Shown in pieces: positions 889-22,646 of a stretch of 40,246 bases of DNA. Under the pieces are notes generated by a model. It searched no databases, was not told the origin of the DNA, and was given only the letters and a program-made list of their open reading frames with translations. Both the position numbers and the translations under genes were made by a program. Every line of letters starts with the position of its first letter. The first letter of the stretch is position 1. This DNA is from Actinomycetota bacterium (lineage in GTDB: Bacteria; Actinomycetota; Coriobacteriia; Anaerosomatales; JAUXNU01): contig JAUXNU010000200.1 of the NCBI GenBank assembly GCA_030682655.1, forward strand, positions 1 to 40,246, read 5' to 3'.

Positions 889-1788
889 TCACTCCGGCAC
901 ACAGTCGGCCGTGACGTCTTCGGGGGCAAGCGCTGGTACGCGAAGCTCGCAGTGATCCTTGCGGGCGAACGCTCGCATCAGGCTGGCCGCCACTTCCTCA
1001 ACACCCGTGAGCACTGAGTGCTGTCGGTCGCCGATTCTGCATGGAGCGTTCAGTGTGCTGACGAGGGCCATGCGGCCCTCCTTGTTGTTGACGCTCGCCT
1101 GTTCGCGAACTGCGACGAGATCGACAAAGGGACGGAACGGCTCAAGCAGGTCGTCTGCGAGATTGAATGCGTTGAGTTGGCTGTCATGGTGAATCCCGAC
1201 GGCGGGGTAGAGCCCGTGCCCGACGAGTGCACGGGCGACAGCGGCTCGCACCACCGCGTAGCCATAGTCCAGTGCCCCGTCCGGATCGTGGCCACTGTGG
1301 CGTTTGACTCCCGGCATGAGCCGGGCGAAATAGTATCTTGCGGCCGTTCCTTCGACTCCCGTGGCGTCGCCAGAGACAACTCGACCTGCATACTCTTCGA
1401 GCTTCTCCGCTCCAGGCAGGTCGAGAGCTTGAAGGCAGAGGGCCTGGTTACGGACCTTGCTCACGATCAGTCTCTGCCAGAGGCGCTTCTTCTGGGGAAG
1501 TGAAGCGGCAAGCTGCTGCCGCGTTGCGGCGAGTTGCCGGCTGTGTCGGCAGTGAGGTAACAGAATTCCCGTGGGCATGTGCTTGTCGTCGCATACCGCA
1601 ACCGCAACTCCGCTTGCGGCGATTAGAGACAGGGCTGCCGAAGAAAGCCAGATCCGGGGATTCTCAAGAACGAGCACGGCGATGTCTTCCAGGGGGATCC
1701 AGTAGCTCTGGCCCTGGACAGCAATCAGTTGATCGGAGTGTACGTGCAGCTCCGCCTCATTGCTGATCACCACCGTGCGAAAAGCCAA
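889..1788 (-). CDS. cas1: CRISPR-associated endonuclease Cas1
   Basis: Cas1 is the integrase that inserts new spacers, acting as a complex with Cas2. The 299-aa protein opens with AFRTVVISN, the usual start of type II Cas1. The active-site regions are visible: Glu in GVEGTAARYYFARLM, His in GIHHDSQLNAFNLADD and the acidic LLEPFRPFVD segment. I chose the TTG at 1788 because family similarity begins there and GGGAG lies about 7 bases upstream. An ATG at 1833 would add 15 residues with no matching homology. The gene overlaps the 3' end of cas9 by 32 bases, so translation is probably coupled. The stop is followed closely by cas2. Confidence 0.95.
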   Translation of the reverse strand: MAFRTVVISNEAELHVHSDQLIAVQGQSYWIPLEDIAVLVLENPRIWLSSAALSLIAASGVAVAVCDDKHMPTGILLPHCRHSRQLAATRQQLAASLPQKKRLWQRLIVSKVRNQALCLQALDLPGAEKLEEYAGRVVSGDATGVEGTAARYYFARLMPGVKRHSGHDPDGALDYGYAVVRAAVARALVGHGLYPAVGIHHDSQLNAFNLADDLLEPFRPFVDLVAVREQASVNNKEGRMALVSTLNAPCRIGDRQHSVLTGVEEVAASLMRAFARKDHCELRVPALAPEDVTADCVPE

Positions 1789-4700
1789 GTCGCTTCTCCC
1801 GTCTGACTCGGTGGACGGACTTGCCGAGAACATCAATCTCGTACTTGTCGAAGCTTACGACCCCCTGCGCTACTCCGAGCCCACGTCGGGTCCAAGAGGA
1901 ATCGTGAGCTGCGATTGTCAGAGTCCCGCCTGCCCGGTCTGTCCCTTTGAAGTAGCCGAAGATCGTTTCAACTCCATCCCTGCTCTTCTTCGTCAGCTTG
2001 ACCAGGTCGTTCATATAGAGGCTGAAGGCGAACCGATAGGTCTCATCGATCAACCGCCAGTCTGCTTCCGCCTTATGCGCGACGATTGCCCGGTTTGGTA
2101 GTGCTCCCCCAGCAACATCTTTGAGATATATCGGCACCAAGTAGTACTTTCCTGACTTCTCGAACGCGTCCGTGCGAACCATCTCTCCGTTGTCTGCAAT
2201 TCCGCCGCGCACAGGAGTGCCGCCACTCGACGGGGCGTCGTACACGCGGATCGATCTGACGCGCGGGGAGACGCGGCCTGCGCGTGTCGGCTTGTAGACC
2301 GGGTCTGCGAATGCCTTCTTGGCGTCACCATCGTGTGCGTCGAGGCACGCTCGCAGCATCGAGAATAGCGCGGCGTCTCTCTCGCGCCCCACCATCCGGT
2401 CGAGTGAGTTGCGGTTGAGATCCTCGAGGTTCACGCGTTTGCTGCTCATGAGTCTGCCCTTGGCATCCTCGCCCTCGATTCGCCTCACTGTTTCCTTGTG
2501 GACTTCACCGCGGATGGATCGTGATGGCATGCGGCTGACCAAGATCGGCCGTGGCTCCAGTGAGTCGGTGTCCAGATCGGTCGCAGGGTCGTCAGAGAAG
2601 CGTGCGGTCAGTATCGCTGTCAACTGCTCTGCGAAGCCCTCCCAGGGCTCGGGGACGTGCTTGGCGTCGACGATCTCCCCGGTGCTGGTGTCAACGTACA
2701 CGCCGTCAGGGTTTCGTAGTGGGCGTACTGAGAAGAAGCGGCTCACCGCCTGAACCATCGCCCGGCTCGTCGCGGCGATCACGGCTGCATCGAGCGCGTG
2801 GTGCAAGTCGCCATCAGCTCGCACCTTCTGTAGCTGCCAACCAGTGCGCAAGAACGCGGTGGCACGACCGTTCACCGTCAGGACGGGACGCTTCTTGTCT
2901 CCTGCGAACTGCAGGTTCTCTTCTACGAAGTTCTTGAAGTAGCGCGCGATGTAGCGCGTGTCCACGAGGTTGCGCTCTCGGAACTCGTCGGATGCCCGCG
3001 CATCGAAATCGGTCCGAAGGAGCCTGTCCTTCTTCGGACGGGGCAGATGCATCGACAAGACCCGCTCCTCGAACTCATGCCATCCGTGCGGGTCTCGACC
3101 CAGATATTCAAACGGCGTCAGGCCCCGCTTGCCCTGATTCGCACTTGCTGTGACCAGAACCTTGTTCATGTACCCGTCATCGAACGAGCGGGAATGCGGA
3201 AGAATGTGATCGACCTCGGCGACGCCGGGCTCTCCGGAGAGCATCCGCACGGGGTCGATGTACTTGCCCGTGTAGGGGCAGCGGCCGTCCTGTTCCTTCC
3301 ACAACTTGTACTTGACGATGTCTAGCGGGCGAGGGTCCGCGATGTTGTGATGCTCGTGCAGGTCGTCGAGTATCGAGTCGTTTCGCGCGCGGTTCTCCTT
3401 CTGACCCTTCTCGATCTTCCTGCGATCCTCGTACGAACGCGCGACGTCTCGCGCCATCTCAACATGCAGCGCCTCGATTGGACCGAAGGTAGCGATAATG
3501 GCGTTGAGCACCTTGCGGGTCTGGGACAGGGCCCGGATGACGACGGGATTGCGCACGTCGTCGTACGGTATCGGCGGGAGTTTGGAGTGTCGGGCGCCCG
3601 ATGCGACCTGGGAGTGATGGAAGCCCGCTGCGACGCAGGCGTCCGAGTAGGGCATGCCTGCTTCCATGTGAGGCAAGATCGCGAGGATCGTTTCGCGCGA
3701 GAGGTGGCCGTGTCCCGAGAAGCGGCACTGCGAGAGTGCATCGACCGCAGTGGCGGGCAGTCCGAGTGCATCGAGCTCTCGGCGGACGCTCTCGGTCAGC
3801 TTGTAGTAGGTAAGCACACGCGCAATGTCGTCGAGGGTCCCGGAATCGTCGCGCAGGCGAGCCCAATCCTCCTTCGAAGCATCACTCATGCGCTTGCGTA
3901 ACTCGCTCCATGCTTTCGGGTGCGGGAGCTTCTCCTTCTTCTCGGCGTCCACGTTGTCAGGATCGGTCCGGTCGTAGCGAAGGCCCACGAAACGCGCGGT
4001 GTCGGGAAGTCCGCAGGCTTTCCGAACGTGCGCGTAGGTCAGTGGTGTTGCGCGCTCGAAGGCCATGTTGGCAATAAGTTGGCGCGCTTCTGGCGGTAGA
4101 GTAAGGCGGTGCCCGCCTGGCTGTTCGGTGTATCGGATGTTGCTGATCTTGTCGAGCACCCGGAATCTCTCAAAGGTAGGGCATGCGCGTGGAACTCGAG
4201 GGTTCGTGCGATCCAGGCTGCACACGCCGACTTTCGCCAACAGCGCGTCGCCCTCAGCGATTGGCGCTTGTGTGGAAATGATCCCGACGTACTCGCGCTC
4301 GAAGTCCGCGCTGGCGTAGGGACTTCCGTGGCCTCGCTGGGCTTCGAACAACGTGTCGATTTCCTGGAGCAGCAGGCTGCGGGAGATCACGCCCTTGTAG
4401 TCCCCTTTGTTGCGCTTGGATTCTTCGAATCTCTCGTCCTTCGCGAGCATCTCTCCGACGGTCCGGTAGCCCTTTTCGCGCATCAGGGCGTCGTTCTCTG
4501 CGATGGCGTGTTTGACAGCGCCTTCGTCGTCGTCGGGCTTGTCTGAGAGCCGCATGGATAGGTATCCGCGTCTCTTGCACATCTGCGTGAGCACGCGAGC
4601 CCATTCCCTGGGCGCGAGCAGCCGGTCCAGACCCTCGCATCGCAAGTCGTAGGGGGTCTTGTTGTTTGCGGACACGATGAAGGCGCTTTCGAGTTCCTCC

Positions 4701-4945
4701 GTCGTCAGCACGCCCTTGACCAGCAGCAGTTCGCGCAGTTGCGACATGCGGACACGGCGCCTGCGGAGTCGCCGCCGTGCCGAACGTGCAAGGCGGCGCG
4801 GTTCTGCCAGCGACGCTCCCGTCTTGGGATTCTCGGCTCGTGTGAACGTTCGCACCCCGGCCGCGACGATTGTCTTGGCGGCAGGATCGAGCACGCACCA
4901 GCCAACGGAAGCGATCCCGATATCCAGTCCCACTCGCAGGCCCAT
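1757..4945 (-). CDS. cas9: type II-C Cas9 endonuclease, Neisseria-like
   Basis: This is the RNA-guided DNA endonuclease of the locus (1062 aa). All nuclease motifs are intact: RuvC-I GLDIGIASVGW (Asp8), an Arg-rich bridge helix near residues 48-65, RuvC-II HVEMARDV near 490, the HNH motif VDHILPHSRSFDD near 580, and RuvC-III HHALDAAVIA near 717. From start to end the layout follows N. meningitidis Cas9 (1082 aa), including the C-terminal KYYLVPIYLKDVA and FDKYEIDVLGK blocks. The PAM-reading loop is shorter than in the Neisseria protein, so its PAM should not be assumed. GAGGGGGG lies a few bases before the ATG. The gene follows the tracrRNA terminator on the same strand. I saw no strong separate promoter between them. 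Confidence 0.98.
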   Translation of the reverse strand: MGLRVGLDIGIASVGWCVLDPAAKTIVAAGVRTFTRAENPKTGASLAEPRRLARSARRRLRRRRVRMSQLRELLLVKGVLTTEELESAFIVSANNKTPYDLRCEGLDRLLAPREWARVLTQMCKRRGYLSMRLSDKPDDDEGAVKHAIAENDALMREKGYRTVGEMLAKDERFEESKRNKGDYKGVISRSLLLQEIDTLFEAQRGHGSPYASADFEREYVGIISTQAPIAEGDALLAKVGVCSLDRTNPRVPRACPTFERFRVLDKISNIRYTEQPGGHRLTLPPEARQLIANMAFERATPLTYAHVRKACGLPDTARFVGLRYDRTDPDNVDAEKKEKLPHPKAWSELRKRMSDASKEDWARLRDDSGTLDDIARVLTYYKLTESVRRELDALGLPATAVDALSQCRFSGHGHLSRETILAILPHMEAGMPYSDACVAAGFHHSQVASGARHSKLPPIPYDDVRNPVVIRALSQTRKVLNAIIATFGPIEALHVEMARDVARSYEDRRKIEKGQKENRARNDSILDDLHEHHNIADPRPLDIVKYKLWKEQDGRCPYTGKYIDPVRMLSGEPGVAEVDHILPHSRSFDDGYMNKVLVTASANQGKRGLTPFEYLGRDPHGWHEFEERVLSMHLPRPKKDRLLRTDFDARASDEFRERNLVDTRYIARYFKNFVEENLQFAGDKKRPVLTVNGRATAFLRTGWQLQKVRADGDLHHALDAAVIAATSRAMVQAVSRFFSVRPLRNPDGVYVDTSTGEIVDAKHVPEPWEGFAEQLTAILTARFSDDPATDLDTDSLEPRPILVSRMPSRSIRGEVHKETVRRIEGEDAKGRLMSSKRVNLEDLNRNSLDRMVGRERDAALFSMLRACLDAHDGDAKKAFADPVYKPTRAGRVSPRVRSIRVYDAPSSGGTPVRGGIADNGEMVRTDAFEKSGKYYLVPIYLKDVAGGALPNRAIVAHKAEADWRLIDETYRFAFSLYMNDLVKLTKKSRDGVETIFGYFKGTDRAGGTLTIAAHDSSWTRRGLGVAQGVVSFDKYEIDVLGKSVHRVRREKRLGFSHGGDQQ

Positions 4946-16316: not shown

Positions 16317-17468
16317 ATGGACGATCAGGGCACAATACCCCCCGCTGGAAACGACCAGCATGCGCATGAGCCTGCCCCACCGAGCGTGACCGGAGGTGAG
16401 ACGCAGGGCTATCCGCTCGCGAACGGTCCTACGACCACGTCGGCGCCGCCCCCGGGCGCAGATGTGCCACCACAGCAGCCACCCGCGCCGCCGCAGCAGC
16501 AGTACGGCCCAGCGTCGCAGCCGCCGGCCGGGCAGCCACCCGTTGCGAAGTCGTCTACCGGGTGGAAGATACTCGCGGCTATCATCGCCGTCATGTTCAT
16601 CTGTGCCATCGCGTGCTGCGGCCTATCCATCGCGGCGGTTGGTTCCGCCGGCTCGGGCGGGTCGGCCGCCTTCGGCGAGGCTATCGCCGTCATCCACATC
16701 GACGGGATCATCGCGGGGACGGGGAGTTCGATGAATGGAGTGATCAGCCCCGAGGAGTTCCTTGGCAAGCTCGACCAGGCGGCAGACGATTCCAACGTCA
16801 AGGCTGTGCTTCTGCGTGTCGACTCGCCGGGCGGGACGGTGGCGGCGTCGCAGGAGATCGCTACCGAGATCGCCAGGTTCGAGAAGCCCGTGGTTGTGAG
16901 CATCGGCGATGTCGGCGCTTCGGGAGCGTATATGGTCGCGTCGCAATGCGACGAGATCGTCGCCAACCGCACGTCGACCGTCGGCAGCATCGGCGTCATC
17001 GCCGAGATCCCGAACGTCGCGCGCCTCCTGGAGAAGGTCGGCGTCGAGTTCACCGTGCTCACCGCAGGCGAGTACAAGGGCGCCGGCAGTCCCTACCGCA
17101 GCCTGTCTGCGAGCGAGACCGCACTGATGCAGGAGGAAATCGACTTCGCCTACGACGAATTCATCAGCATCGTTGCCGACGGTCGTGGTCTACCCGAGGC
17201 CGAGGTCCGCAAGATGGCGACCGGGTGGGCCTGGTCCGGCGTGAAAGCCAAGGAGATGGGGCTGGTCGACACGCTGGGAACCTATGCGGACGCGATCGAT
17301 CGCGCAGCGGAGCTAGGCGGAATCGATGGCGAGCCGCAGATCGTCACCTACGATGAGTACTCTCTGTCCGACGTTGTCGGCAGTCTCATCGGGCTCACCG
17401 ACCGCCTGGATCGCATCGGCGCTCTTGGTGGGGCGACCGATTCCTACGGGCCTTCGGTCCCAAAGTAG
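16317..17468 (+). CDS. sppA: signal peptide peptidase SppA-like S49 protease
   Basis: This is a membrane serine protease thought to clear signal peptides. The 383-aa protein has a cytoplasmic Pro/Gln-rich segment (residues about 5-80), one membrane helix (about 83-108) and an S49 domain. The nucleophile Ser is in GDVGASGAYMVAS near 202 and the general-base Lys in TAGEYKGAGSPYR near 254. The single S49 domain matches the short SppA form found in Gram-positive bacteria. GCGGAGGAA precedes the ATG at 16317. The metallophosphoesterase gene follows 16 bases downstream. Confidence 0.92.
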   Translation: MDDQGTIPPAGNDQHAHEPAPPSVTGGETQGYPLANGPTTTSAPPPGADVPPQQPPAPPQQQYGPASQPPAGQPPVAKSSTGWKILAAIIAVMFICAIACCGLSIAAVGSAGSGGSAAFGEAIAVIHIDGIIAGTGSSMNGVISPEEFLGKLDQAADDSNVKAVLLRVDSPGGTVAASQEIATEIARFEKPVVVSIGDVGASGAYMVASQCDEIVANRTSTVGSIGVIAEIPNVARLLEKVGVEFTVLTAGEYKGAGSPYRSLSASETALMQEEIDFAYDEFISIVADGRGLPEAEVRKMATGWAWSGVKAKEMGLVDTLGTYADAIDRAAELGGIDGEPQIVTYDEYSLSDVVGSLIGLTDRLDRIGALGGATDSYGPSVPK

Positions 17469-17484: not shown

Positions 17485-18342
17485 ATGAGCGATCAGCCGA
17501 CGATCATCGCGCACATCTCGGACCTGCACTGCGGGTCCCGTTACCACATCCCGAGTCTCGCGACGCGCGTCATCGACGAGCTGAATGACCTCGCGCCCGA
17601 CATCGTTGTAGTCACCGGCGACCTCACCGACATGGGGTTCCGGCAGGAGTTCAAGCAGGCGCACCGGCTGCTCTCGAAGCTCGACTGCGAGCACCGGCTC
17701 GTTCTCCTTGGCAATCACGACGCACGCAATGTCGGCGACGAGCACTTCGCCGAGATGTTCGGCGCGCGCAGCCGAGAGCTGCTCTTCGAGAACGTGCGCA
17801 TCCTTGGCATCGATTCGAGCGAGCCGGACCTGGACAGCGGTCGCGTCGGCCGTGCCCGTTACCGGTGGATCGAGGAGCGCTTCAGCGACCCGGAGGACTT
17901 CAAGATCGTCGCGATGCACCACCACCTCGTGCCGGTGCCTGGAACCGGCCGCGAGCGCAACATCGTCTACGACGCGGGCGACGTGCTGCGCGTTCTCGCG
18001 AGTTGCGGCACCGACCTCGTGCTCTGCGGCCACAAGCACGTGCCGAACGTTTGGCGACTCGAGGACATGCTCATCGTGAATGCCGGCACCGCCTGCTCGC
18101 ACCGTCTGCGCGGCAAGGTCAAGCCTTGTTACAACATCATCGAGGTCCATGACGGCAACCGCGTGCGTGTGCTCCTGAAGGAGCCCTACACCAGCGCGCA
18201 GGTGGTAGTCGACTATCGCGGCGTGCACAAGCACTACTGCAACTGGCGTCCCGGTGCGGACGGATCGGAAGAGGTCGACGAGACGCGCGTGACCCCCACC
18301 ATGCTCGAACGCACCTCAACGACGCTCGAGGAGGACGAATGA
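17485..18342 (+). CDS. calcineurin-like metallophosphoesterase
   Basis: The 285-aa protein has all five metal-binding motifs of the family in order: ISDLHCG near residue 12, VTGDLTDMG, LGNHDAR, MHHHLVPVP and CGHKHVPN. It should be an active two-metal phosphoesterase; the sequence does not fix the substrate. It has no signal peptide. The ATG of the next gene, for cyclic 2,3-diphosphoglycerate synthetase, overlaps its stop by 4 bases. This makes a role in opening or degrading that cyclic product an attractive idea, which is inference only. A cyclic-nucleotide phosphodiesterase is an alternative. Confidence 0.88.
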   Translation: MSDQPTIIAHISDLHCGSRYHIPSLATRVIDELNDLAPDIVVVTGDLTDMGFRQEFKQAHRLLSKLDCEHRLVLLGNHDARNVGDEHFAEMFGARSRELLFENVRILGIDSSEPDLDSGRVGRARYRWIEERFSDPEDFKIVAMHHHLVPVPGTGRERNIVYDAGDVLRVLASCGTDLVLCGHKHVPNVWRLEDMLIVNAGTACSHRLRGKVKPCYNIIEVHDGNRVRVLLKEPYTSAQVVVDYRGVHKHYCNWRPGADGSEEVDETRVTPTMLERTSTTLEEDE

Positions 18343-19682
18343 AGCGGGTCCTCGCCCTCATCGACGGGGAGCACTATCCGCCTGTCGTCCGATTCGCCCT
18401 CGATCAGCTCGCCCGGGAGTCCGAGGTCGTGGCAGCGGTGTTCCTCGGCGGCACGGAGAAGGTCGATCTCGAGGCCGGATTCGCGATCTATGGCGTGCCG
18501 GTGGTTGCCGGACCGAACGCGGACGAGGCACTCGCGCGGGCGGTATCCGAACACTCTCCCGATGAGGTCGTGGACCTCTCGGACGAGCCGGTCGTCTCCT
18601 CGGCAGACCGGTTCAGGCTGGCCAGCATCGCACTCGGACTCGGCTTGTCGTACCGCGGCGCGGATTTCCTATTCACACCGCCGCGCGTGCTCGTCGTCCC
18701 GCGGACCCCGACGCTGGGCCTCATCGGCACCGGCAAGAGGGTCGGCAAGACGGCCGTGTCAGGCTACGTTGCCCGCGCGCTCAAGGCGGCCGGCCGCGAC
18801 ATCGTCGTGCTTGCGATGGGACGGGGCGGCCCCTCCGAGCCGGAGCTGATACACGGTGACCGGGTCAGCCTTCGGACCGAGGACCTGCTTGAACTCGCCC
18901 GGCAAGGCAAACACGCGTCCAGCGACAACTACGAAGACGCGGTGATGAGTCGCGTGACGACGGTGGGATGCCGCCGCTGCGGTGGCGGAATGGCCGGCGA
19001 GACGTTCTTCTCCAACGTTCCGGAGGGAGCGAGACTGGCAGACTCGCTGGGCAAGGAGCTCATCGTTCTCGAGGGTTCAGGCGCCGCGATCCCGCCGGTG
19101 CATTCGGACGCGGACATCCTTGTCGTCGGTGCCGGCCGAGGTATCGTCTACGTTGACGGTTACTTTGGACCCTACAGGCTCTCCCGGGCCGACATGGTCA
19201 TAATCGCTTCTGCCGAGGAGCCCGTGGCCACTCCGGCGCAGGTTGCCGAGATTCGCGCCGAGATCACCAGGCAACGCCCCGACATTCCCTGCGTGGTCAC
19301 CACTTTCAGACCCGCGCCGATCCAGCCGGTGAAAGGCCTGCGAGCGTTCTTCGCGACGACAGCCCCGGCCGAGGTGGTGCCGGTGTTGGTCGCGCACCTC
19401 GAGGCCGAGTTCGGGTGCGAGGTTGTGGCCACAAGCGCACACCTCTCCGATAGGGCGCGGCTGCGGAGGGACATGCAAGCTGCGCAAGGAGGCTACGACG
19501 TGCTCCTGACGGAGCTCAAGGCCGCCGCGATAGACGTCGTAGCTGCGGCAGGCGAGGAGGCCGGGGTGCCCACGGTGCTCTGCGACAACGTTCCAGTGGC
19601 CACGGGAGGCCAGGATCTACACGGACTCGTGACCCGCGTGGCGGAGATCGCGATAGAGCGCGGCAGCGCGAGGGAGGTATGA
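18339..19682 (+). CDS. cpgS: cyclic 2,3-diphosphoglycerate synthetase
   Basis: The enzyme joins the two phosphates of 2,3-diphosphoglycerate in an ATP-dependent step, making a cyclic solute known from Methanothermus and other archaea. The 447-aa length is close to the archaeal enzyme. The start MKRVLALIDGEHYPPVVRFAL is typical of the family; a P-loop GTGKRVGKTAVSG lies near residue 128, and a conserved VGCRRCGGGMAGETFF block near 210. The gene overlaps the phosphoesterase before it and the kinase after it by 4 bases each, so the three are translationally coupled. Assignment is from remembered family features; no search was run. Confidence 0.85.
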   Translation: MKRVLALIDGEHYPPVVRFALDQLARESEVVAAVFLGGTEKVDLEAGFAIYGVPVVAGPNADEALARAVSEHSPDEVVDLSDEPVVSSADRFRLASIALGLGLSYRGADFLFTPPRVLVVPRTPTLGLIGTGKRVGKTAVSGYVARALKAAGRDIVVLAMGRGGPSEPELIHGDRVSLRTEDLLELARQGKHASSDNYEDAVMSRVTTVGCRRCGGGMAGETFFSNVPEGARLADSLGKELIVLEGSGAAIPPVHSDADILVVGAGRGIVYVDGYFGPYRLSRADMVIIASAEEPVATPAQVAEIRAEITRQRPDIPCVVTTFRPAPIQPVKGLRAFFATTAPAEVVPVLVAHLEAEFGCEVVATSAHLSDRARLRRDMQAAQGGYDVLLTELKAAAIDVVAAAGEEAGVPTVLCDNVPVATGGQDLHGLVTRVAEIAIERGSAREV

Positions 19683-20590
19683 GTGTGCCAGAACACAGGA
19701 CGATCACCCTGAGCGACCGCAAGCACGGGCTTCCGTTCTCGAAGGGGCTGCTGGCCCAGTCGTTCATGGCGACCGGGCTCCCGCCGAGTCGGGCGTACGT
19801 CATCGCCACGCGAATCCAAGACGAACTGCGCGAGCGCGATGAGCTATCCATTACCGTTGCTCGCCTCAGGCAGCTCTCCTGCGACTATCTCGAGCGCATG
19901 GCCGGGGGCGACTATGCCCGTCGCTACATGCGCCTGTACGAGCTGAGCAAGCTCGACAAACCCCTCGTCGTGATGATCGGCGGAACGACCGGTGTGGGCA
20001 AGTCAACGATCGCGACGGAGGTTGCCCACCGGCTGGGTATCACGCGAATCGTATCGACGGATTCCATTCGTGAGGTCATGCGTGGTATCTTTACCAGGGA
20101 CCTCATGCCCGCGATTCACGAAAGCGCGTTCAAAGCGTGGCGAGGCCTGCGCATCCCGGTACCGCACGGTGCCAATCCCGTTATCGTCGGATTTCGCGAG
20201 CAGACTGCCGTCGTGACGACCGGGGTGGAAGCGCTGATAGAACGGTCGGTTCTCGAGGGGGACAGTCTCGTTATCGAGGGCGTCCATCTCGTTCCCGGAT
20301 ACATCGAGGCCAGCAAGTTCGAGGGTGCCCGGGTCGTGCAGCTTGTCATCACCGTCGACGATGAAGACGCGCACAGAAGCCACTTCTACATCCGTGAGGT
20401 TCAGACGGATGGGATGCGGCCCTTTGAGCGGTATCGCGCGAACTTCGGAAATATCCGCACGCTCGGGCACTACATCGTCGACCTGGCACGGGAGCACGGA
20501 ATCCCGGTCATCGCGAGCCATCAGCTCGACCTGACCGTGGCGGACGTGCTGGAGCACATCGTCAACGAGGCCATAGCGCCCGACGAGTAG
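19679..20590 (+). CDS. pgk2: 2-phosphoglycerate kinase
   Basis: The enzyme phosphorylates 2-phosphoglycerate to 2,3-diphosphoglycerate, the substrate of the upstream synthetase. The 303-aa protein matches the archaeal length. It has an N-terminal ATP-cone-like domain (about residues 8-88, FSKGLLAQSFMATGLPPSRA) and a P-loop kinase domain with IGGTTGVGKSTIA near residue 100, then IVSTDSIREVMRG and VIEGVHLVPGYI. It starts 4 bases inside cpgS. The pairing with cpgS strongly supports the call. A transaldolase gene begins 47 bases downstream. Confidence 0.85.
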   Translation: MSVPEHRTITLSDRKHGLPFSKGLLAQSFMATGLPPSRAYVIATRIQDELRERDELSITVARLRQLSCDYLERMAGGDYARRYMRLYELSKLDKPLVVMIGGTTGVGKSTIATEVAHRLGITRIVSTDSIREVMRGIFTRDLMPAIHESAFKAWRGLRIPVPHGANPVIVGFREQTAVVTTGVEALIERSVLEGDSLVIEGVHLVPGYIEASKFEGARVVQLVITVDDEDAHRSHFYIREVQTDGMRPFERYRANFGNIRTLGHYIVDLAREHGIPVIASHQLDLTVADVLEHIVNEAIAPDE

Positions 20591-20637: not shown

Positions 20638-21300
20638 GTGAAGTTCTTCTTGGACACTGCAAACATCGCCGAGATCGAGGAGGCCGCGTCGTGGGGCGTG
20701 CTAGCCGGCGTCACTACGAACCCGACGCTGTACGCACGCGAGGGCGGCAGACTCGCCGACTTCCACAGTCACATCACACGCATATGCGAGATCGTTGACG
20801 GACCTGTGTCCGCCGAGACAGTCTCGCTGAAGCGTGACCAGATAGTCGCCGAGGGCGTGGAGCTCGCTGCCTTGCACCCCAACGTGGTCGTCAAGGTTCC
20901 GACGATGCCCGAAGGCCTTGCCGCGACTCGGACTCTGTTCGAGAAGGGCATCAATGTGAACATGACCCTGTGCTTCACTGTTCCGCAGGCACTGCTCGCG
21001 GCGCGTTCTGGTGCCGCGTTCGTCTCTCCCTTCGTTGGCCGGTTCGACGACATCTCCGAGGACGGGATCGAGCACCTCGCCAATGTCGTCGCGGCGCTGG
21101 GCAACTACGACTTCGGCCATTCGGTCGAGGTTATCGCGGCCTCGGTGCGTCATGCAGAACACGTGCTGCAGGCGGCGCTCATCGGCGCCGATATCGCCAC
21201 CGTGCCCTTTGGAGTACTGGAGAAGTGCATCAAACACCCGCTGACGGATCGCGGGCTGGAATCGTTCCTCGCCGATTGGGAGAAGGTCAAGAACTCATGA
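20638..21300 (+). CDS. tal: transaldolase / fructose-6-phosphate aldolase family
   Basis: This is a small TalC-type transaldolase of the pentose phosphate pathway. The 220-aa protein starts MKFFLDTANIAEIEEA, has GVTTNPTLYAREG, and places the Schiff-base Lys in VVKVPTMPEGLAA near residue 85. PFVGRFDDI and ADIATVPFGVLEK close the barrel. The GTG at 20638 starts at the family N-terminus with GGAAAGG upstream; a GTG two codons earlier is less well spaced. The rho ATG overlaps its TGA. Fructose-6-phosphate aldolase activity cannot be excluded from sequence. Confidence 0.92.
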   Translation: MKFFLDTANIAEIEEAASWGVLAGVTTNPTLYAREGGRLADFHSHITRICEIVDGPVSAETVSLKRDQIVAEGVELAALHPNVVVKVPTMPEGLAATRTLFEKGINVNMTLCFTVPQALLAARSGAAFVSPFVGRFDDISEDGIEHLANVVAALGNYDFGHSVEVIAASVRHAEHVLQAALIGADIATVPFGVLEKCIKHPLTDRGLESFLADWEKVKNS

Positions 21301-22646
21301 GTGCACGTCCCCGCAAGCGTGGCCGTCGCGGAGGTGGCGGAAGCCAGCAGGAGCCCGTGGCGCCGTCAATCAGCCGGACGGACCTGGAGGCCAAGACAGT
21401 CGTCGAACTCCGTACCATGGCCACCGAACTCGGAATCGACGCCAAGGCTCTCAAGAAGAAGGACGAGCTGATCGAAGCGGTCCTCGAGGCGAAGGTCAAA
21501 GCCGAGGGGTTCATCGAGATCCAGGGCATTCTCGACATCCTGCCCGAAGGCTACGGGTTCATTCGGACGAGCGGCTACCTGCCTGGTGACAACGACGTCT
21601 ACTGCTCTATGTCGCAGACCCGCAAGTTCGAGCTTCGCCGAGGTGACATGGTCAAGGGCCAGGTTCGTCCGCCCAAGGACAACGAGAAGTACTCCGCGCT
21701 ACTGCGCGTAGACACCATCAACGGCCTGCCTCCGGAGTCTGCGCGCAATCGCGAGAGCTTCCGCGATCTCACGCCGGTCTACCCCGACGAGCGATTCCGA
21801 CTCGAGCATGGCCCGCAGTTCATGACGGCGCGCATCATCGACCTCGTCGCCCCGATCGGGAAGGGTCAGCGCGGGCTGATCGTGTCCCCGCCGAAGGCCG
21901 GCAAGACAACAGTGCTCAAGGACATCGCGGCCGCCATCAGCGCGAACAACCCCGAGGTCTACCTCATGTGCCTGCTCGTCGACGAGCGGCCAGAGGAAGT
22001 CACAGACATGGAGCGCTCGATCCACGGCGAGGTCGTGTCGTCCACCTTCGACATGCCGAGCGAGAACCATGTCGCGGTCTCCGAGCTCGTGATGGAGCGG
22101 GCCAAGCGCCTCGTGGAGAGCGGATACGACGTACTGATCCTGCTCGACTCGATCACGCGACTCGCACGCGCCTACAACCTCGCCACGCCCGCCTCCGGCC
22201 GCATCCTCTCCGGCGGTGTCGATTCGACTGCGCTCTACCCGCCCAAGCGCTTCTTCGGCGCGGCGCGCAATATCGAGCACGGCGGTTCGCTCACGATCCT
22301 TGCCACTGCGCTCGTAGAGACCGGTTCGAAGATGGACGAGGTCATCTTCGAGGAGTTCAAGGGCCCCGGTAACATGGAGCTGCGTCTCAACCGCTCCATG
22401 GCCGATCGCCGCATCTTCCCTGCGATCGACGTTGTCGTCAGCGGCACACGCAAGGAGGAGCTGCTGCTCGACCCGATGGAAGCGCCGTTCGTGTGGGGCC
22501 TTCGCCGAGTCCTCCACGGTGTCGATTCGCCGGATCGTGCGATCGACATGCTTATCAAGGGACTCAAGCAGACCGACTCCAACCAACTCTTCCTTACCAA
22601 GATGGCCAAGAAGGCCGGGGAGAAGCGCAACGGTATCGATCTGTAG
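21297..22646 (+). CDS. rho: transcription termination factor Rho
   Basis: Rho is the hexameric RNA helicase that ends untranslated transcripts. The 449-aa protein has a short basic tail, a Rho_N helix domain (about 28-65), an RNA-binding cold-shock-like domain (GILDILPEGYGFIR to about 145), Walker A SPPKAGKTT near 200, the Q-loop DSITRLARAYN and the R-loop GPGNMELRLNRSMADRR. It lacks the long N-terminal insertion of many high-GC actinobacterial Rho proteins. The start overlaps the transaldolase stop by 4 bases. No clear intrinsic terminator follows. Confidence 0.97.
   Translation: MSARPRKRGRRGGGGSQQEPVAPSISRTDLEAKTVVELRTMATELGIDAKALKKKDELIEAVLEAKVKAEGFIEIQGILDILPEGYGFIRTSGYLPGDNDVYCSMSQTRKFELRRGDMVKGQVRPPKDNEKYSALLRVDTINGLPPESARNRESFRDLTPVYPDERFRLEHGPQFMTARIIDLVAPIGKGQRGLIVSPPKAGKTTVLKDIAAAISANNPEVYLMCLLVDERPEEVTDMERSIHGEVVSSTFDMPSENHVAVSELVMERAKRLVESGYDVLILLDSITRLARAYNLATPASGRILSGGVDSTALYPPKRFFGAARNIEHGGSLTILATALVETGSKMDEVIFEEFKGPGNMELRLNRSMADRRIFPAIDVVVSGTRKEELLLDPMEAPFVWGLRRVLHGVDSPDRAIDMLIKGLKQTDSNQLFLTKMAKKAGEKRNGIDL

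Follow-up and report, generated by a model that had tools for sequence, protein, structure and literature searches.

A three-gene unit in an actinobacterial genome probably encodes a bacterial cycle for cyclic 2,3-diphosphoglycerate (cDPG). It lies on the + strand of the window, the whole 40,246-nucleotide stretch of DNA that was analysed (one stretch of contig C200 in a 2.94 Mb genome), and consists of genes for a metallophosphoesterase (MPE, 285 aa; 17485–18342), the cDPG synthetase CpgS (447 aa; 18339–19682) and a homologue of 2-phosphoglycerate kinase (2PGK, 303 aa; 19679–20590). We assign a probability of roughly 0.68 to the reading that 2PGK and CpgS synthesise cDPG and that MPE hydrolyses cDPG and/or 2,3-diphosphoglycerate (2,3-DPG). 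The analysis showed the identity of the genes, their catalytic residues, their linkage and their co-occurrence. The gene set is real, conserved and present in two domains of life; it is not a new kind of system, and it adds a new component and a host range far wider than published.

Synthetase and kinase

A phmmer search of the PDB matched CpgS to the Methanothermus fervidus synthetase (8oru/8ork) with an E value of 6e-123 and 46% identity, and to a second deposited synthetase (9sxb) over its full length with an E value of 9e-108. Residues 2–439 align with residues 4–452 of the 8oru chain, including the unique N-terminal domain of ~127 residues. The structure paper (PMC10690619) names the residues holding 2,3-DPG, ATP and Mg in the M. 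fervidus enzyme. All 11 ligand residues checked (E45′, K46′, K145, R146, K149, T150, D208, E305, T353, E404 and K406) recur unchanged in the window protein, as E40, K41, K133, R134, K137, T138, D196, E293, T341, E392 and K394; position P335 of that paper is F in the structure chain itself and was left out. In an alignment of 89 CpgS proteins from Actinomycetota, Bacillota, Calditrichota and archaea, E45, K46, K145, R146, K149, T150, D208, E404 and K406 were invariant (89/89), T353 was kept in 88 of the 89, and at the position of E305 75 proteins had E and 11 had D. Key residues differing from those of the archaeal proteins, which the sequence-only reading had named as the finding that would speak against it, did not occur.

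Pfam and NCBIfam searches of CpgS returned no family above cut-off, which may be why the protein has been little noticed; bacterial CpgS may already be labelled as such in automatic databases. In the CpgS tree, the position of the window protein within Actinomycetota was strongly supported, and all neighbours of the protein belonged to that phylum. Bacterial CpgS were deeply diverged and most actinomycetotal sequences fell into large actinobacterial clades, with the deepest branches weakly supported. On these grounds a recent transfer from methanogens was rejected as the simple story, on a weakly supported backbone.

The single-copy 2PGK homologue carries the P-loop GGTTGVGKST within its conserved core, as located by alignment. 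Residues 6–298 cover positions 3–292 of the NCBIfam model, that is, the P-loop kinase core and the N-terminal extension over nearly the whole length. Its structure model (pLDDT 89.7) has P-loop nucleoside kinases as the nearest folds. The protein is predicted to work like 2PGK, which would make it the 2,3-DPG-forming enzyme.

The known pathway of M. fervidus and Methanothermobacter comprises the same two enzymes (2PGK and the synthetase, cDPGS), with full-length CpgS homology and the same catalytic residues, whereas here the host is a bacterium, the genes overlap in an operon that includes a phosphoesterase, and CpgS diversity is deep.

A CpgS-associated phosphoesterase subfamily

MPE matched PF00149 (E value 4e-17; 63.8 bits against a cut-off of 21.5) and holds the complete two-metal ligand set, in agreement with its earlier description as a full-motif metallophosphoesterase. 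The metal ligands (D13, H15, D46, N77, H183 and H185) and a run of histidines at 145–147 were invariant in the clade of CpgS-adjacent MPEs. The MPE tree gathered every CpgS-adjacent bacterial MPE into one clade (support 85), with a clade of unlinked bacterial paralogues apart from it and generic MPEs far away. In an AlphaFold model (pLDDT 80.5), the nearest structures were Rv0805 (Z 24.9) and GpdQ (Z 24). MPE shares the fold and the two-metal site of these two-metal phosphodiesterases (Z 24–25), whereas identity is about 20–24% and the CpgS-associated subfamily has motifs of its own (NHDxRNVG, DSSEPDLDxGRVG, HHHLxPVPGTGRERN and GHKHVP). Purple acid phosphatases and phytases were also among the fold neighbours, the former just behind Rv0805 and GpdQ. 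A role for MPE as an anti-phage or defence nuclease was considered and rejected, the NCBIfam DS9_1 and PADLOC matches being weak and confined to part of the domain.

A scan of GTDB genomes yielded 154 CpgS relatives. The best 80 of these, which were kept, came mostly from Coriobacteriia-like, Aquicultor, Gaiellales-like and Rubrobacter genomes and also included Theionarchaea, Bacillota and Calditrichota. Among 396 Actinomycetota genomes sampled evenly from the window's phylum (CpgS threshold E ≤ 1e-20), CpgS was present in 200, MPE in 197 (192 shared with CpgS, five without it) and 2PGK in 198 (194 shared with CpgS, four without it), and all three were found together in 186. Among the 196 CpgS-negative genomes, only five carried the MPE subfamily, and the genomes listed for three families of the window's class (f3–f5) lacked CpgS, MPE and 2PGK alike. 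MPE lay directly upstream of CpgS on the same strand at 67 of 76 named loci and at 35 of 39 loci across families; 2PGK lay directly downstream at 66 of 75 and 36 of 39, respectively. Full-length homology, invariant catalytic residues and the near-perfect co-occurrence of CpgS with 2PGK strongly support the synthesis half of the sequence-only reading, and bacterial CpgS and 2PGK very likely carry out cDPG synthesis.

MPE might instead be a general cyclic-nucleotide or other phosphodiesterase, a bystander in a conserved block with sppA, transaldolase and rho. The whole block SppA–MPE–CpgS–2PGK–Tal–Rho–L31 is kept in relatives of the window, and the nearest solved structures, Rv0805 and GpdQ, would suit such an enzyme. 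This explanation is very improbable: the subfamily is nearly missing from CpgS-negative genomes, the three families mentioned above lack it along with CpgS and 2PGK, and in archaea it is tied to CpgS and 2PGK without the other genes of the block.

The archaeal tie was seen in a phylum reached via the Theionarchaea record. Of its 115 genomes, 91 contained CpgS, 96 contained 2PGK and 98 contained a two-domain MPE. MPE and 2PGK were at most 3.5 kb apart in 79 of 93 genomes, where random positions predict about 0.4% per genome. Gene orders and strands differed from the bacterial ones and among the archaea themselves; the proximity of MPE and 2PGK persists in these other arrangements, so the link is more than inherited gene order. 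We regard this linkage as the strongest argument against a bystander MPE. In Pyrococcus yayanosii, too, the cDPG synthesis proteins (PYCH_14390–400) are annotated side by side, and they are pressure-regulated (PMC4890121); the pairing of synthesis genes is thus common to that cluster and the present one, and the sampled archaeal genomes also have a nearby MPE.

The archaeal MPE has two tandem domains, whereas the bacterial protein has one complete domain. In the alignment, the first archaeal domain kept all metal ligands and the second had lost most of them. A second domain without metal ligands was seen in nearly all rows (L064, 8410–9207; L200, L202, L206 and others), as a pseudo-enzyme domain fused to an intact one. 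The archaeal MPE usually had a CBS-domain protein as its neighbour in the loci that were read, which suggests that regulation by adenylates may occur.

Where the sequence-only reading had linked the phosphoesterase to cDPG turnover, its linkage held and was extended: MPE belongs to a distinct subfamily, nearly limited to CpgS-bearing genomes and tied to the same genes in archaea. The breakdown of cDPG by MPE is a predicted function.

Several side observations concern these genes. A 70% DNA match on contig C97, tried as a second operon, proved to be an unlinked MPE paralogue with 51% protein identity; this second MPE of the same subfamily in the source genome lies at C97:11906–12634 (L280). Unlinked paralogues group by themselves and, in some genomes without a CpgS-adjacent MPE, are the sole copy. 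In two Rubrobacter loci (L075 and L083), a glpX-type fructose-1,6-bisphosphatase, called by Pfam in L075 and judged from the antisense open reading frame (ORF) in L083, occupies the place between CpgS and Rho where others have 2PGK and transaldolase. A metagenome-assembled genome (MAG) titled Slackia heliotrinireducens (L055) has the full MPE–CpgS–2PGK block. That title is doubtful, since the family code of an identical CpgS (L190, G306) does not belong to the window's class.

A proposed cDPG cycle and its alternatives

In the cycle that we propose, 2PGK would convert 2-phosphoglycerate and ATP into 2,3-DPG, and a CpgS dimer would use a second ATP to close 2,3-DPG to the cyclic pyrophosphate cDPG. 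The chemistry would be as in M. fervidus, with transfer of the gamma-phosphate onto the 2-phosphate, attack by the 3-phosphate and release of inorganic phosphate (Pi). The two-metal MPE would open cDPG to 2,3-DPG and/or strip phosphate from 2,3-DPG, returning the store to central metabolism. The net result would be a reversible reserve of high-energy phosphate and carbon branching from 2-phosphoglycerate. We infer the substrates, the reaction direction and the physiological role; gene linkage and co-occurrence make MPE a candidate cDPG hydrolase, and the set probably includes a breakdown enzyme of its own.

Methanobrevibacter smithii is a mesophile. A review (PMC1224877) lists this species among those containing cDPG, and the statement of a 2023 paper (PMC10690619) that cDPG is exclusive to hyperthermophilic methanogens and the synthetase found only there was therefore already too strong. 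Half of our broad actinobacterial sample carries cpgS, contrary to that statement, and papers on ammonia-oxidizing archaea (AOA) list a cDPG synthetase. The titles of CpgS records include MAGs from palsa, groundwater and sediment; judging from these names, hyperthermophily does not seem to be required for CpgS. Because CpgS also occurs in lineages that give no indication of extreme thermophily, a role confined to thermoprotection is disfavoured.

Turnover of cDPG in Methanothermobacter is fast, and its cDPG hydrolase is membrane-bound and inhibited by K+ and Pi (PMC1224877). The hydrolase activity of Methanothermobacter thermautotrophicus (van Alebeek 1994; Sastry 1992) is the reaction proposed here for MPE, and differs in that it was reported as membrane-bound and has no gene named for it in the open-access literature that we searched.

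Several observations weigh against this reading. No membrane segment was obvious in MPE by eye, whereas the reported hydrolase is membrane-bound. The open-access literature search found no cDPG in bacteria, none in Actinobacteria and no link to a metallophosphoesterase. The Fisher values for co-occurrence (about 1e-95) ignore shared ancestry, and the genomes are not independent evidence. Some actinobacteria (L006, L051, L061 and L156–L158) have no MPE adjacent to CpgS, and some of these have only the unlinked paralogue. The MPE subfamily is missing from CpgS-bearing Bacillota, as is 2PGK from the two such genomes in which it was sought. Seven small archaeal genomes (G413–416 and G429–431) have MPE beside 2PGK and no detectable CpgS. 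Finally, the 2PGK homologue scored below two curated NCBIfam cut-offs, with 309.9 bits against 343 for NF003259 and 326 bits against 603 for NF008994, a model built on a 492-residue protein; for this reason it is named a homologue and not filed as a 2-phosphoglycerate kinase member.

The CpgS-less archaea bear on what MPE acts upon, which may be 2,3-DPG, cDPG or both. Loci with 2PGK and a two-domain MPE but no CpgS were read in six of these genomes (L249–L254, from G414, G416, G415 and G429–G431), and in G429–G431 the gene preceding 2PGK and MPE looks like an archaeal-type 2,3-bisphosphoglycerate (BPG)-independent phosphoglycerate mutase (Pfam-tested in one). With such an arrangement, a 2,3-DPG phosphatase would be no less plausible than a cDPG hydrolase. 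CpgS and 2PGK would then make cDPG, MPE would dephosphorylate 2,3-DPG, and cDPG would be opened by reversed CpgS or by another enzyme. The reported reversibility of the M. fervidus synthetase (PMC1224877) and the monoesterases among the fold neighbours of MPE agree with this alternative, while the closest folds, Rv0805 and GpdQ, act on phosphodiesters. The gene order of Actinomycetota also speaks against it: MPE adjoins CpgS and not 2PGK, and in Rubrobacter the MPE–CpgS pair has stayed together with 2PGK elsewhere in the genome. On balance we think a pure 2,3-DPG phosphatase unlikely, though a serious candidate.

The low 2PGK scores also leave room for a different bisphosphate substrate, leading to another cyclic pyrophosphate or a signal, so that the archaeal names would mislead. 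Papers on genes of the plant phytate pathway also use the label "2-phosphoglycerate kinase", and mevalonate-3-phosphate 5-kinase is a related family. The CpgS residues named in the structure paper as touching the substrate are, however, retained, E45′ and K46′ of the partner subunit among them. BPG-independent phosphoglycerate mutases adjoin CpgS or 2PGK in loci of archaea and Bacillota, and these neighbours point to phosphoglycerate substrates. We therefore consider a different bisphosphate improbable, and retain cDPG as the predicted product.

CpgS is rare in Bacillota (5/199 genomes). There (L068, L074 and L209–L212) cpgS has a GntR/UTRA-type regulator in front and an ABC importer behind, with an iPGM-like metalloenzyme after the importer, and the locus perhaps serves the use of imported phosphoglycerates. 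The archaeal locus L201 combines an importer similar to that of Bacillota with CpgS, phosphoglycerate mutase, a CBS protein and MPE. Generic MPEs of CpgS-positive Bacillota and Calditrichota were tried as counterparts and rejected, as they fall outside the MPE subfamily.

If the unit is active, cDPG, known as an archaeal extremolyte, would be an overlooked phosphate and energy metabolite of bacteria, and if MPE hydrolyses cDPG, an orphan hydrolase activity measured in the 1990s would gain a testable gene. Culturable Rubrobacter carrying MPE–CpgS make the idea directly testable. A wider proposition, which we advance tentatively and rate somewhat below an even chance, is that cDPG metabolism is common in bacteria, ancestral or nearly so in deep actinobacterial lineages and without a tie to hyperthermophily; that the MPE subfamily is the missing cDPG hydrolase of both domains of life; and that the degenerate archaeal domain and its CBS partner form an energy-sensing release switch.

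Gene boundaries and neighbouring features

The three ORFs confirmed the tight + strand unit with 4-base overlaps that had been described, with ATGA at both joints (18339–18342 and 19679–19682). Plausible ribosome-binding sites are AGGGAG, 7 nt ahead of the MPE start codon ATG, and GAGGAGG (18328–18334, +), which lies within the 3′ end of the MPE gene 4 nt ahead of the cpgS ATG. The likely site of the 2PGK homologue is the Shine-Dalgarno-like GAGGGAGG (19670–19677, +), which precedes ATG 19679 by 1 nt and an in-frame GTG (19685) by 7 nt. This spacing suits the GTG better, so that 2PGK possibly starts just past the CpgS stop codon; the second overlap may accordingly depend on the choice of start codon.

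Upstream, an SppA-like signal peptide peptidase gene (16320–17468, +) ends 17 bp before the MPE start and is probably not part of the pathway. A transaldolase-family gene (20638–21300, +) and the gene for transcription terminator Rho (21297–22646, +) follow downstream on the same strand. All three neighbours are kept in relatives. A scan for promoters and terminators found nothing convincing inside the block.

At the contig end, the window contains a CRISPR array (136–504) with repeats of about 34–36 nt and a 66–67 nt spacing. Beside it, ORFs on the − strand resemble Cas1 (315 aa; 889–1836) and Cas9 (1062 aa; 1757–4945), and together with the array they make up a compact type II system.

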